A model generated the notes under the pieces. That model had not been told where the DNA came from and made no database searches. It worked only from the letters and a program-made list of their open reading frames with translations. Positions 1,625 through 5,853 of a DNA stretch of 5,853 bases are shown piece after piece; position 1 is the first letter of the stretch, and the number at the start of each line of letters is the position of its first letter. This stretch comes from Gammaproteobacteria bacterium. Its GTDB lineage: Bacteria; Pseudomonadota; Gammaproteobacteria; Immundisolibacterales; Immundisolibacteraceae. The stretch is taken from NCBI GenBank assembly GCA_003526065.1, contig DQBD01000005.1:1-5853 (forward strand), written 5' to 3'. The position numbers and the translations under genes are program-made.

Positions 1625-1643
1625 GCCGGTCGGCGATCCGGCT
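1624..1643. repeat. 6-bp inverted repeat at the 3' end of the lipoprotein gene
   Basis: AGCCGG (1624-1629) and CCGGCT (1638-1643) flank an 8-nt loop. The outer arm reaches the final base of the lipoprotein stop codon. Together with the repeat at 1601-1621 it makes two adjacent potential hairpins in the 84-bp gap. No U run follows on the minus strand, so any termination role would be non-canonical. Confidence 0.35.
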
Positions 1644-2410
1644 CAGGCCGCCGGCCCCGGCGTATAGGTCGCCGGGCAGCTTTGGCCCGGGCGACTGCCC
1701 AGAAGCTGCTCGATGCGCAGCGCCTGCTGGCCACGCGCGGCGCCACGACGTTGCGCTTCGACCCATTCGGCCTGGACGGATACCCAAAGCCCGACCTCGC
1801 TGGCCGATTCACGGGCCGCCTGCTGCAGCGCCGCCATCTCGCGGGATTCGGACAACACCGGCAGCGCCTGACCCGTTCCGCACAAGGCCAGCGTCCCGCT
1901 CCGCGCATTGAAGATGCCGGTCACGCGCATGGATTCAGCAATGGGATCGACACGCGCCGCGCGGCTGAGACTATAGGCCATGGTTCCAGTGAGCGGTTCG
2001 CCGTCCCGGCCGAGCTGCTCGAGCCGGGTGGAATCGGCCAGATGATAATCGCCGGTGCGACCGCTCTCGCCACGCAGGGTCAAGCGCCGTCCTTCGAGCC
2101 GCCAACGGCCGATTTCATGCAGAACGATCCCCTCGCCACCATGCGCCGACTCGTACTGTTGCCGCAGGCGATAGGTGCCGTCGCCGAGCAGCGTGAGCGT
2201 CCGGCGCATGCCGCCGCAGGCCTTGCACGGCAGTTCGCCGACGAAGGTCACCGGCGGCACCAACGTCGATTGCGCGCGCACATCCGGCGCGGGAAACGGC
2301 GCCTGAATCGGCGGCTCCGGATGCTTGGCCGCGCAGGATCCTAACCCCACTGCGACCAGCAGCCCCAACGACCAGCCACGGACCCTGTCCATGTTTTCCC
2401 GCATTTTCAT
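1643..2410 (-). CDS. NlpE-like lipoprotein with N-terminal NlpE/CutF-type domain
   Basis: A predicted 255-aa exported lipoprotein. The start at 2410 gives the signal peptide MKMRENMDRVRGWSLGLLV... ending in the lipobox LGSC with Cys26 as the lipidated residue, followed by a Pro-rich linker (about 31-55). The next segment has the NlpE N-terminal pattern: VGELPCKACGGM (57-68, CxxC at Cys62/Cys65), then TLTLLGDGTYRL (71-82), a GRWRLEG strand (101-107) and LTLRG (110-114). Residues about 161-245 resemble the C-terminal half of NlpE-like proteins: MRVTGIFNA, an LCGTGQALPV stretch and a late Cys245. NlpE proteins are envelope lipoproteins tied to copper tolerance and, in E. coli, surface-stress signalling through Cpx; the role here is inferred. 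ATGs at 2404 and 2392 are alternative starts. 2410 is preferred for its GGGG-type ribosome binding site and signal peptide length; 2461 would make the leader too long. No strong promoter was found. Confidence 0.8.
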   Translation of the reverse strand: MKMRENMDRVRGWSLGLLVAVGLGSCAAKHPEPPIQAPFPAPDVRAQSTLVPPVTFVGELPCKACGGMRRTLTLLGDGTYRLRQQYESAHGGEGIVLHEIGRWRLEGRRLTLRGESGRTGDYHLADSTRLEQLGRDGEPLTGTMAYSLSRAARVDPIAESMRVTGIFNARSGTLALCGTGQALPVLSESREMAALQQAARESASEVGLWVSVQAEWVEAQRRGAARGQQALRIEQLLGSRPGQSCPATYTPGPAA

Positions 2411-2576
2411 GACGCCCCGCTCGCTCGCATACTGTGGATTCATCATGCCAGCATTCGACACAGCGCATCACCCTGCAAGCTGACACCTCGGGACAGCTCA
2501 CCCGAAAAAGCCGGGCACTTGCACGTGGAAGGTCGCGCCAGGCATTCGCATCCCGAACGCCCGGCGCACATTCGAC
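2411..2576. other. Intergenic spacer between the DNA-binding gene and the lipoprotein gene
   Basis: 166 bp separate two minus-strand genes. I see no clear -35/-10 pair for the lipoprotein gene and no canonical terminator for the DNA-binding gene. A weak 4-bp stem (CCCG 2501-2504, CGGG 2512-2515, A-rich loop) and an imperfect palindrome centred on CACGTG (2518-2531) are the only structures noted. Confidence 0.5.
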
Positions 2577-3441: not shown

Positions 3442-3837
3442 ATGACCTCCGAAGAAGTCCGCTACCGCCTCATGCAACGCTTGGCGCAGAATCCTGCGGT
3501 CACACAGCGCGAGCTGGCGCTGGAGATGGGCGTGAGCGTCGGGAAGATCAACTATTGCCTGCGCGCGCTCATCGAAAAAGGCCACGTCAAACTCGGCAAC
3601 TTCCGCCGCAATCCCGACAAGCGACACTACACCTATTTGTTGACACCCGCGGGCGTCGAGGCCAAAGCATGGGCCACGGTGCATTTTTTGCGCCGCAAGC
3701 GCGCGGAGTACGAAACCATTCAGGCTGAAATTCGTGCCTTGCAGGATGAACTGGCCGCGCTCGGCATCGCCCCTGAACCCGAGCAACCCAAACCGGCCAC
3801 GGATCCCGCAACCGCCACCCCGAGGGAGTCGCCCTGA
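3442..3837 (+). CDS. EPS-associated MarR-family transcriptional regulator
   Basis: A 131-aa winged-helix protein of the MarR type found at the head of exopolysaccharide loci (the 'EPS-associated MarR' family). Residues 4-65 hold the DNA-binding domain: EEVRYRLMQRLAQNP, then VTQRELALEMGVSVGKINYCLRAL as helix-turn-helix, then a wing with GHVKLGNFRRNPDKRHYTYLLTPAG (47-71). Residues 76-112 form a long charged helix (ATVHFLRRKRAEYETIQAEIRALQDEL), probably a dimerising coiled coil. The tail (113-131) is Pro- and Glu-rich and likely disordered. GGAG at 3432-3435, 6 nt before the ATG, supports the start. The stop codon overlaps the next start codon as TGATG, so it is probably translationally coupled to the RfaH-like gene. 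It presumably tunes initiation of the locus. Whether it activates or represses, and its ligand if any, cannot be read from the sequence. Confidence 0.9.
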   Translation: MTSEEVRYRLMQRLAQNPAVTQRELALEMGVSVGKINYCLRALIEKGHVKLGNFRRNPDKRHYTYLLTPAGVEAKAWATVHFLRRKRAEYETIQAEIRALQDELAALGIAPEPEQPKPATDPATATPRESP

Positions 3838-4334
3838 TGACCCGCTGGTATGCCATCCAGACCAAGCCGCGCCAGGAGGAAACTGCGCTGCGCCACCTGG
3901 AGCGTCAGGGCTATGACTGCCACCTCCCACGCATCCGCGAACGGCGGTTGATCCGTCGGCGTCCCGTGTCCATGGCGGTGGCCCTGTTTCCGCGCTACCT
4001 GTTCGCCTGTCTCGACCTCACGACCCAGAACACCGCGCCCATCCGCTCGACCCATGGCGTGGTGGGACTGGTCCGCTTTGGCGCAGGCCCCGCACCGCTC
4101 CCGGAAGGGTTCGTGGAGCAGCTGCGCGAACAGGACGAGCGGGGCGGCATCCCGGAGCTGGGCGACTGGCAGACCGGCGATGCGCTGGAGGTGACCGACG
4201 GGCCTTTTGCCGGACTGCGCGCGGTCTTTGCGGCGCGCAACGGCGATGCGCGGGTCATCGTGCTCATGGAACTGCTCGGCCGGACCCAGCGTCTGGCCCT
4301 GCCGGAACATCAACTGCGGCGCGCCGGCACCTGA
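3837..4334 (+). CDS. rfaH: RfaH-like NusG paralogue, transcription antiterminator
   Basis: The 165-aa product aligns nearly without gaps with E. coli RfaH (162 aa, sequence recalled from memory). Residues 1-100 are the NGN domain that contacts RNA polymerase and the ops DNA, with WYAIQTK (4-10), HLERQGYDC (20-28), FPRYLF (51-56) and GVVGLVRFGAGPAPLP (74-89). The C-terminal KOW domain follows (about 112-163; GDALEVTDGPFAGLRAVF). Residues Lys10, His20 and Thr72, at ops-contacting positions of E. coli RfaH, are kept, but Arg16, Asn70 and Arg73 are Thr, Arg and His. The E48 partner of the autoinhibitory E48-R138 salt bridge is Val here, while the Arg is kept as Arg139. RfaH-type proteins reduce pausing and Rho termination in long surface-polysaccharide operons and couple transcription to ribosomes. 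The ATG overlaps the upstream stop (TGATG), with GAGGGAG at 3822-3828 as ribosome binding site. An exact ops element lies 57 bp after its stop codon. It could also be labelled a specialised NusG-like EPS antiterminator. Confidence 0.92.
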   Translation: MTRWYAIQTKPRQEETALRHLERQGYDCHLPRIRERRLIRRRPVSMAVALFPRYLFACLDLTTQNTAPIRSTHGVVGLVRFGAGPAPLPEGFVEQLREQDERGGIPELGDWQTGDALEVTDGPFAGLRAVFAARNGDARVIVLMELLGRTQRLALPEHQLRRAGT

Positions 4335-4387
4335 CCCGCCGACGTGATCGCCATGCACGGCATGCGAGACCCGCGGGACGGCAATCG

Positions 4388-4417
4388 CAGGGCGGTAGCG
4401 TGCCCTGACAACGCTGC
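4388..4417 (+). promoter_or_regulatory. ops (RfaH recruitment) element GGCGGTAGCGTG at 4391-4402, in a structured leader
   Basis: Bases 4391-4402 match 12 of 12 the E. coli ops sequence GGCGGTAGCGTG, where RNA polymerase pauses and RfaH binds the exposed non-template strand. The flanks AG and CC resemble the JUMPstart context of enterobacterial surface-polysaccharide operons. The element is on the same strand as the genes, between the RfaH-like gene and gmhA, about 70 bp before the gmhA start. It lies within a perfect 6-bp inverted repeat, CAGGGC (4388-4393) and GCCCTG (4402-4407). The loop segment GTAGCGT (4395-4401) can also pair with ACGCTGC (4411-4417) with one G-U pair. For ops to act it must be transcribed, implying read-through from upstream or a promoter before 4390. 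Confidence 0.82.
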
Positions 4418-4432
4418 GCAGACTGATACACT
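4405..4432 (+). promoter_or_regulatory. Candidate promoter for gmhA (extended -10)
   Basis: CTGACA (4405-4410, 5/6) and TACACT (4427-4432, 4/6) are 16 bp apart. A TG one base before the -10 box (4424-4425) gives an extended -10. Start would be near 4439, about 33 nt before the gmhA ATG. Transcripts from here would not contain the ops element just upstream, so either both a read-through and a local transcript exist, or this match is fortuitous. Confidence 0.4.
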
Positions 4433-4471: not shown

Positions 4472-5041
4472 ATGTCCTCGTCACTGATCCAGCAAAGCCT
4501 TACCGAACACCGCGCCGCACTCGAGACCGTGAGCGCCATGGCGCCCGAAATCCTGCGCGCGGCCGAGTCCATCACCCAGACGCTGCGCCGGGGTGGACGC
4601 GTGTTCGCCTGCGGCAATGGCGGCTCGGCAGCCGACGCCCAGCATTTCGCCGCTGAACTGACAGGCCGGTTCGAACGCGAACGCCGCGGGCTCGCTGGGA
4701 TCGCTCTGACCACCGACACCTCGGCGCTGACCGCCATCGGCAACGACTACGGCTTCGATGCGGTTTTCGCACGCCAACTGGAGGCGCTTGGCCAGTCCGG
4801 TGATCTGTTGCTCGCGCTCAGCACGTCCGGCCATTCGCCGAATGTCGTGCGCGCCGTCGAGACCGCCCGCGCGCACGACATCGGCACGCTGGGACTGTTG
4901 GGGCGGGATGGCGGCGCCATGGCCGACCTGGTCGATCAGGCCTTGATCGTCCCCGCGACCCGAACCGCACGCGTCCAGGAAATGCATATCCTGATCCTGC
5001 ATCTGTTATGCGAGGCCATCGACGACACGGATCCCGGCTAA
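4472..5041 (+). CDS. gmhA: Phosphoheptose (D-sedoheptulose-7-phosphate) isomerase
   Basis: A 189-aa SIS-domain protein of GmhA length, converting sedoheptulose 7-phosphate to D-glycero-D-manno-heptose 7-phosphate, the first step to ADP- or GDP-heptose for LPS core or capsule/EPS. The sugar-phosphate motif ACGNGGSAADAQH (46-58) and the second SIS loop STSGHS (117-122) are intact. The four zinc ligands of GmhA are present at matching spacing: His58, Glu62, Gln169 and His177 (E. coli His61, Glu65, Gln172, His180). His177 separates it from the related replication factor DiaA, which I recall as having Asn there. The start at 4472 matches the family; its ribosome binding site is weak (GAGC-like about 10 nt upstream). 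It sits downstream of the ops element and 54 bp before rfbA on the same strand, as the first biosynthetic gene of the locus. Whether it serves general LPS heptose or a locus-specific heptose cannot be told from this window. Confidence 0.9.
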   Translation: MSSSLIQQSLTEHRAALETVSAMAPEILRAAESITQTLRRGGRVFACGNGGSAADAQHFAAELTGRFERERRGLAGIALTTDTSALTAIGNDYGFDAVFARQLEALGQSGDLLLALSTSGHSPNVVRAVETARAHDIGTLGLLGRDGGAMADLVDQALIVPATRTARVQEMHILILHLLCEAIDDTDPG

Positions 5042-5095: not shown

Positions 5096-5853
5096 ATGCT
5101 CATGTCCAACTCGACACCGCGCAAAGGCATCCTGCTTGCCGGCGGCTCCGGCACCCGGCTCTATCCACTCACGGTTGGGGTGAGCAAGCAGCTTATGCCG
5201 GTCTATGACAAACCGATGGTCTACTACCCCCTGTCCACGCTGATGCTGACCGGCATCCGCGAGGTCCTGATCATCACCACACCTCACGACGCCGAAGCTT
5301 TCGCGCGCGTGCTCGGCGATGGCCGCCAATGGGGCATGACGCTGCACTATGCGGCGCAGCCCCAACCCGACGGCATCGCCCAAGCGCTGCTGATCGGCCA
5401 GACATTCCTTGACGGCGCGCCCTCGGCGCTGGTGCTCGGGGACAATATCTTCTTCGGTCATGGCCTTGCCGAATCGCTGGCCGCCGCCCATGCGCAGCCG
5501 AACGGTGCGACGGTATTCGGCTATTGGGTTCGCGATCCGGAACGTTACGGCGTGGTGGAATTCGACGACACGGGCCGGGCCCGATCAATCGAGGAAAAGC
5601 CGGCGCGGCCGCGCTCGAACTACGCCGTCACCGGGCTTTACTTCTACGATGAAACCGCGCCGGCCCGCGCCACTGAATTACGCCCCTCGGCCCGCGGGGA
5701 GCTCGAGATCACCGACCTCAACAACGCCTATCTGGCCGATGGCGCCCTGCGCGTGGAGCGGCTGGGCCGGGGTCAAGCCTGGCTCGATACCGGCACCCAT
5801 GATTCCCTGCTGGACGCAGCCAATTTTGTCCAGGTGATGCAGGCGCGCCAGGG
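5096..5853 (+). CDS. rfbA: Glucose-1-phosphate thymidylyltransferase, 3'-truncated by window edge
   Basis: RfbA/RmlA joins dTTP and glucose 1-phosphate to give dTDP-glucose, the first step towards dTDP-rhamnose and other dTDP-deoxysugars of O-antigen and EPS. The 252 complete residues cover most of the roughly 290-aa enzyme. Visible motifs are the nucleotide-binding loop [13 protein letters not shown] (14-26) with [21 protein letters not shown] (30-50), QPDGIAQA (90-97), and LGDNIFFGH (114-122) with the metal-binding Asp116. Further along are [12 protein letters not shown] (145-156), EEKP (166-169), [11 protein letters not shown] (175-185), [10 protein letters not shown] (198-207) and AWLDTGTH (228-235). 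ATG at 5096 is taken because GAG at 5084-5086 is 9 nt away; ATG at 5102, two codons later, is equally possible. It follows gmhA by 54 bp with no terminator, so it is probably co-transcribed. The missing 40 or so C-terminal residues lie beyond the right edge. No frameshift or key-residue loss is seen. Confidence 0.95.

Follow-up and report, generated by a model that had tools for sequence, protein, structure and literature searches.

Introduction

The rfaH gene of E. coli stands alone, and its product acts in trans (PMC7593976). The accessible portions of the literature, to which this and all following citations refer, describe rfaH genes near envelope operons, with cluster CL4 associated with an HTH regulator (PMC7593976), as well as cis-linked RfaH proteins, often monomorphic (PMC13015549). 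Recruitment in cis has been put forward as an ancestral model (PMC7819879, PMC6391919); RfaH is proposed to have begun in cis by its targets, ops recognition and autoinhibition being late acquisitions for action in trans (PMC7593976, PMC7819879, PMC13015549). A conserved JUMPstart stem-loop was noted in 2010 (PMC2864571). Outside the enterobacteria, RfaH and ops control the capsule operon of Vibrio vulnificus, the accessible text making no mention of a linkage between rfaH and ops (PMC7247339). No report of an exact ops linked to rfaH was found in the open-licence literature, a weak negative; PMC7593976, accessible in part, contains a figure on the positions of ops and regulator.

The window (the whole stretch of 5,853 nucleotides analysed here) resembles the E. 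coli system in that its polysaccharide locus has a leader with an exact 12-nt ops, an RfaH-like protein is encoded, ops is preceded by a hairpin in the E. coli register, and the start codon follows ops at a short distance. It resembles the Vibrio vulnificus capsule locus as an occurrence of RfaH and ops outside the enterobacteria. It differs from E. coli in that its rfaH lies 56 nt before the probable site, and in that the protein is changed at four of eleven ops-contact residues and at E48 and I93. As with UpxY, LoaP, TaA and the RfaH clusters CL2–CL8, the gene of the regulator is found at or within the polysaccharide locus that is its probable target; whereas the recruitment mode of operon-linked NusG paralogues is called unknown in the literature (PMC7593976, PMC6391919), the window has an ops. 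With the JUMPstart RNA (RF01707) it shares the succession of a stem, one G and the ops 12-mer, but it has another stem sequence and a poor match to the conserved 5' box. The locus belongs to a linked variant of the established RfaH/ops system that occurs widely; the chemistry of this variant is ordinary, and its arrangement and breadth are new.

Organization of the locus

The features of the window are as follows.

guaB, minus strand
1643–2461, minus strand: NlpE-like lipoprotein gene (clear Pfam NlpE match; NCBIfam NlpE 69.1 bits against a cut-off of 243)
3442–3837, plus strand: MarR-family EPS-associated regulator, MarR_EPS (TIGR04176, 142.8 bits against a cut-off of 88)
3837–4334, plus strand: RfaH-like NusG paralogue, 165 aa (PF02357; TIGR01955, 144.0 bits against a cut-off of 144.5; E. 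coli RfaH in the PDB)
4363–4389, plus strand: leader hairpin, 5' arm 4363–4367 (UGCGA) and 3' arm 4385–4389 (UCGCA), proposed from covariation across linked sites
4391–4402, plus strand: ops element, exact E. coli 12-mer; pause expected at U11 (4401) by analogy with E. coli
4405–4432, plus strand: promoter-like site (CTGACA, 16 nt, TG.TACACT), a rival start for gmhA
4472–5041, plus strand: gmhA-like sedoheptulose 7-phosphate isomerase gene, the first past ops (TIGR00441, 208.3 against 209.45 bits)
5096–5853, plus strand, continuing past the window end: rmlA (TIGR01207, 416.6 bits)

The stop codon of MarR_EPS and the start codon of rfaH share one base (TGATG, 3835–3839). Beyond the window the contig continues with rmlC, rmlD and rmlB after rmlA, and the sugar genes downstream of ops are gmhA, rmlA, rmlC, rmlD and rmlB. 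Read by eye, there is no clear Shine-Dalgarno sequence before gmhA and a GAGGGAG before rfaH. A near-identical genome (G000, contig C29) differs at 5 of the 5853 bases (371, 3186, 3840, 4600 and 4705), none inside 4363–4402 and one in the second codon of rfaH. On the minus strand, an open reading frame of 111 residues (2577–2912) has no Pfam or NCBIfam match, and similar frames are seen by eye in the same region of two genomes of the same genus (G006, G007).

The sequence GGCGGTAGCGTG at 4391–4402 on the plus strand has no mismatch to the 12-nt ops of E. coli, as an earlier note on this DNA had stated in describing an exact ops on the coding strand of an intergenic gap. The same 12 letters form the ops end of the rfb leader that Rfam gives for E. 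coli K-12 in its JUMPstart alignment. The window ops is placed in a leader on the coding strand, within the rfaH–gmhA gap, 56 nt 3' of rfaH and 69 nt 5' of gmhA; the latter distance fits the reported spacing of ops to gene, "within 100 nts" (PMC11001881). In G000 (2.80 Mb, 96% complete) GGCGGTAGCGTG occurs once on the forward and never on the reverse strand, making this the sole exact copy. Since the reversed-letter control also gives one, a single copy per genome is uninformative, and it is the position in the rfaH–gmhA gap that is informative. Copies with one mismatch number 24, including the exact one, against 46 for the control, so that further ops sites in G000 are not indicated. We set aside a perfect CAGGGC...GCCCTG repeat that surrounds ops, because it folds no better than chance and few linked sites have it.

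The RfaH-like protein

The gene directly before ops had been described as encoding an RfaH homologue. Its best sequence matches in the PDB are indeed E. coli RfaH chains (E 3e-24), and since its scores fall just under the cut-offs of TIGR01955 and NF006534 (121.1 against 124 bits for the latter), we name it RfaH-like and not RfaH. An NusG N-terminal domain (PF02357) is followed by a KOW-type C-terminal domain (CTD), and the modelled N-terminal domain fits the RfaH of ops complexes with 1.6–1.7 A over 97–98 columns; the scores for UpxY (63.1 against a cut-off of 100 bits) and LoaP (29.2 against 125) stay far below those of these families. An RfaH from a source labelled Candidatus Macondimonas is 82% identical, and the host of the window is probably related to that genus. 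Among the eleven ops-contact residues of RfaH (listed in PMC5995543), seven are kept and four are changed (T68P, N70R, A71S and R73H). The first three of these changes are common to 31 of the 32 ops-linked proteins of set 1 (defined below) and to most of the others, and R73 is not enriched among the proteins with a linked ops (5/32, against 12/47 of the others). Of the residues named for RfaH autoinhibition, E48, I93 and F130 (PMC7593976), the window protein keeps F130 and carries E48V and I93V. AlphaFold2 models its CTD as a beta-barrel with moderate confidence, and does the same for a relative that keeps E48, so the method does not discriminate between CTD states.

Linkage of ops and rfaH-like genes

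We surveyed three sets of loci around rfaH-like genes. Set 1 comprises all 77 matches in 76 of 369 genomes of the class plus two congeners (79 loci); set 2, drawn from the 88 new matches in 85 of 398 genomes of the phylum, 60 of these matches, chosen in approximate order of match quality and skipping G598 and G684; and set 3, 80 of 572 named relatives, which after removal of 7 duplicates gave 73 loci. An exact ops lies within about 5 kb of the rfaH-like gene in 78 of the 212 loci (32/79, 13/60 and 33/73 in sets 1–3), with 79 sites in 1.90 Mb examined; the linkage of regulator and ops described for the window is thus recurrent. The reversed control gave 1, 0 and 0 matches in the three sets, one in the same 1.90 Mb. 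Exact sites on the strand of rfaH number 32, 10 and 33, against 0, 4 and 0 on the opposite strand, or 75 of 79 on the same strand. In set 1, one-mismatch copies are few (4 on the same strand and 2 on the opposite one, against 32 exact same-strand copies). In set 2 they number 12 and 4, against 10 exact same-strand copies, and the exact ops is therefore not the sole form near rfaH there. The remaining 134 loci have no exact ops in the stretch examined; at least 1 kb of downstream sequence was available in 190 of the 212 loci, 74 of which have ops.

On the same strand, ops follows rfaH at 71 of the 75 sites, at a distance of 32–4008 nt (median 494), and precedes it at the other 4 (p = 1.3e-18, relative to the bases available and with loci taken as independent). 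The window has the common placement, which supports the further proposal of the earlier note that rfaH escapes its own ops. The order MarR_EPS–rfaH–ops of the window, with ops at up to 320 nt, is found in 11 loci, in 9 of them at 32–69 nt, and in 25 other loci, where ops is farther away, MarR_EPS is found between rfaH and that ops or close to them; a MarR_EPS match within 2.5 kb accompanies 50 of the 78 ops loci against 18 of the 134 others. The ops–rfaH linkage is non-random.

Four loci have the reverse placement, with ops on the same strand 91–533 nt upstream of rfaH (L070, L076, L089, L134) and, in L076 and L089, before a MarR_EPS–rfaH pair; positive autoregulation, or self-activation, is possible in these four. 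In another locus (L223) two exact ops about 320 nt apart are both on the strand opposite to rfaH, with a hairpin at each.

The association extends to whole genomes. A form of the site, CAKGGCGGTAGCGTG (CAK form), is present in 38 of the 369 class genomes, namely in 35 of 76 with an RfaH match and in 3 of 293 without (p = 2.4e-24), and its reversed control in 8 genomes, none of them with RfaH. Because the CAK form had been picked from linked loci, the comparison was repeated without the 25 genomes having a linked CAK site, which left 10 of 51 against 3 of 293 (p = 4.6e-7). These ten RfaH-bearing genomes with an unlinked CAK site indicate that unlinked, trans-type arrangements exist; the 41 remaining RfaH-bearing genomes are devoid of the CAK form.

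A hairpin in fixed register with ops

An inverted repeat ending one nucleotide 5' of ops was first seen in the aligned flanks of set 1; in the window, the 3' end of the hairpin (4389) stands one nucleotide before the start of ops. Pairing was assessed by a permutation test in which the 3' arm of each site (−6 to −2) is combined with upstream stretches taken from other sites, so that composition and shared consensus are preserved. In set 1, the source of the hairpin idea, pairing is 11.06 against 8.03 (sd 0.43; z = 7.1, 0/20000), and when the arm is slid the top z (7.1) falls at this same register, lesser signals appearing at −2, +2, +20 and −26 to −30. With the register fixed beforehand, sets 2 and 3 gave z = 4.3 and 7.5 (0/20000 each), a register one base earlier having an equal z in set 2. 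Pooled over 77 distinct sites, the covariation reaches z = 12.65, and full 5-bp stems number 61 where 22.2 are expected. We also aligned 52 of these 77 sites with MAFFT, hand-picked without near-duplicates or sites lacking a clear stem and therefore biased towards structure. In this alignment 83.5% of cells pair (73.0 after shuffling) and 25 cells have changed on both sides (6.4 after shuffling); the covariation is 0.380, slid partners giving no more than 0.214.

The end of the stem at −2 from ops is in the same register as in the E. coli K-12 rfb leader of the Rfam alignment. That leader scores 21.7 bits with model R1, in whose construction E. coli was not used. Folded alone, the gap, the ops stretch and the hairpin–ops stretch are no better than shuffles, and the best single-sequence fold of 4360–4402 has a pairing other than the proposed hairpin; since folding the window sequence by itself gives no support, the window hairpin rests on comparison. 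A stem shuffle test gives p = 0.295 for the window and p ≤ 0.05 for 10 of the 32 set 1 sites, and an energy-rank test of stems p ≤ 0.05 for 7 of 32 (combined p = 2e-5). Membership in the Rfam JUMPstart family was rejected, the window scoring 18.2 bits with RF01707 under a gathering score of 35, which is reached by 0 of the 13 linked loci tested (13 of the 32 of set 1). The element is a JUMPstart-like leader made of hairpin and ops, and larger than ops alone; the hairpin had been passed over in the earlier note, as had the promoter-like site between ops and gmhA and the published linkage of rfaH with envelope operons.

Placement of the element in close relatives

In a genome of the same family and another genus (G005), the order MarR_EPS–rfaH–hairpin–ops is kept, with 27 of 28 core bases identical to the window, and the open reading frame that follows has, by eye, APS-reductase-like and SqdB-like parts. 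Two genomes of the same genus (G006, G007) keep the order MarR_EPS–rfaH–gmhA–rmlA and have no ops in the gap, G006 having three mismatches at the aligned place and G007 nothing recognisable. The earlier note, which saw a self-contained cassette, had itself named the lack of the 12-mer in close relatives with the same gene order as what would refute it; with the ops absent from the gap in both same-genus genomes, the outcome at this position goes against that picture, and the cassette is not fixed.

Both genomes have exact hairpin–ops elements elsewhere, mostly before polysaccharide genes. In G007 one stands before an open reading frame with APS-reductase and UDP-sulfoquinovose-synthase parts, the second part being cut by the end of the locus, and another has an rmlB-like gene (by eye) on one side and a gene for glucose-1-phosphate cytidylyltransferase on the other; in G006 one is found about 650 nt before an open reading frame that, by eye, seems to encode a reductase of deoxysugar synthesis. 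With model R1, the three G006/G007 elements score 21.3–27.5 bits, against 8.7–15.1 for exact 12-mers inside other genes of the family (L010, L011, L012); the window with G000 scores 38.2 and G005 49.5 bits, both genomes being in the R1 training set, so that the 38.2 bits of the window are partly by construction. Across the order, the best R1 match has E = 0.049 in the five genomes without an RfaH match, three of which are 80–86% complete, and E ≤ 5e-5 in the four with one, among which G006 has 7% contamination. A scan of genome contigs using a single protein gave no match. The placements in G000, G005, G006 and G007 suggest that the site moves and the regulator stays, a reading based on four genomes.

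Two further observations concern these elements. APS-reductase-like and UDP-sulfoquinovose-synthase-like parts occur in one open frame after the hairpin–ops in both G007 (L345) and G005 (L006), and an RfaH-controlled sulfo-sugar operon is possible there. In G006 (contig C55; L346, L021), repeats of the form ctgtaggag... lie between the exact ops and the next open reading frame.

Proposed mechanism and alternatives

We consider it likely, by analogy with E. coli RfaH, that the ops beside the RfaH-like gene recruits its product for read-through of gmhA–rmlACDB. The MarR_EPS/rfaH pair would be transcribed first, and polymerase leaving rfaH would then cross a composite leader of a short RNA hairpin, one nucleotide and the 12-nt ops. 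It would pause at ops U11 (4401), where the exposed non-template strand would recruit the RfaH encoded just upstream; RfaH would stay on the polymerase, keep NusG and Rho off and aid ribosome loading, and gmhA–rmlACDB would be read through without Rho termination. We infer pausing, recruitment, antitermination and ribosome coupling at the window ops from what E. coli RfaH does. As ops follows rfaH, the loop would be feed-forward and not self-amplifying.

The strongest competitor accepts the ops as genuine and lets a promoter of its own at 4405–4432 mainly drive gmhA–rml, RfaH adding little here. The promoter-like site matches at 9 of 12 positions and has a TG before its second hexamer, and by eye a TACACT (G007) or TAAACT (G006) lies 34–39 nt before gmhA in the two genomes without ops there; because this site follows ops, RfaH control of gmhA–rml is only putative. 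We nevertheless find a dominant promoter unlikely, given that 0.4 (sd 0.7) such sites are expected by chance in the region where one was found, that a second promoter would not block RfaH loading on polymerase arriving from upstream, and that 71 of the 79 sites in linked loci share the strand of rfaH and lie downstream of it. Less probable still is a protein that works without ops, constitutively and in cis with an NusG-like fold, the ops being a relic or weakly used. The changes E48V and I93V, the modelled beta-barrel, the frequent monomorphism reported for cis-linked RfaHs (PMC13015549) and the two congeners without ops in the gap would fit it, but the beta-barrel is also modelled for the E48-bearing relative, both congeners have their exact hairpin–ops elements elsewhere, and exact copies on the rfaH strand outnumber one-mismatch copies by 32 to 4 in set 1, though they stand at 10 to 12 in set 2. 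That the 12-mer is there by chance has a negligible probability and was rejected on the surveys of the three locus sets. About one such 12-mer is expected per genome (reversed control 1) and exact copies do occur inside unrelated genes of relatives (L010, L011, L012), but these have the low R1 scores given above against the 38.2 bits of the window (own genome in training), and strand bias, linkage and co-occurrence with RfaH all contradict chance.

Recruitment of RfaH at the window ops remains our preferred reading, and the hairpin adds a feature to it. With polymerase at U11, the base of the hairpin is 11–12 nt from the RNA 3' end. Hairpin-stabilised pauses such as that of his have a hairpin-to-3'-end spacing of about 11–12 nt. 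A cryo-EM paper, in its accessible part, describes the ops-paused complex as biochemically distinct from hairpin-stabilised ones. A further idea, which we hold tentatively and with some doubt, is that the conserved unit may be a two-part pause, hairpin plus ops consensus pause, the hairpin of which would either hold the translocation register or prevent backtracking during the docking of RfaH on the ops loop; linked loci with an intact ops would then be an intermediate between cis and trans RfaH in which it is the site that moves and not the regulator.

Significance

Dozens of linked rfaH-like genes from several proteobacterial lineages already carry the exact 12-nt ops. The varying placement of ops within one genus offers material for ordering the appearance of ops recognition relative to that of autoinhibition. 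Finally, a hairpin in fixed register with ops gives the JUMPstart stem-loop a testable role in pausing, with many sequences lying below the Rfam cut-off.
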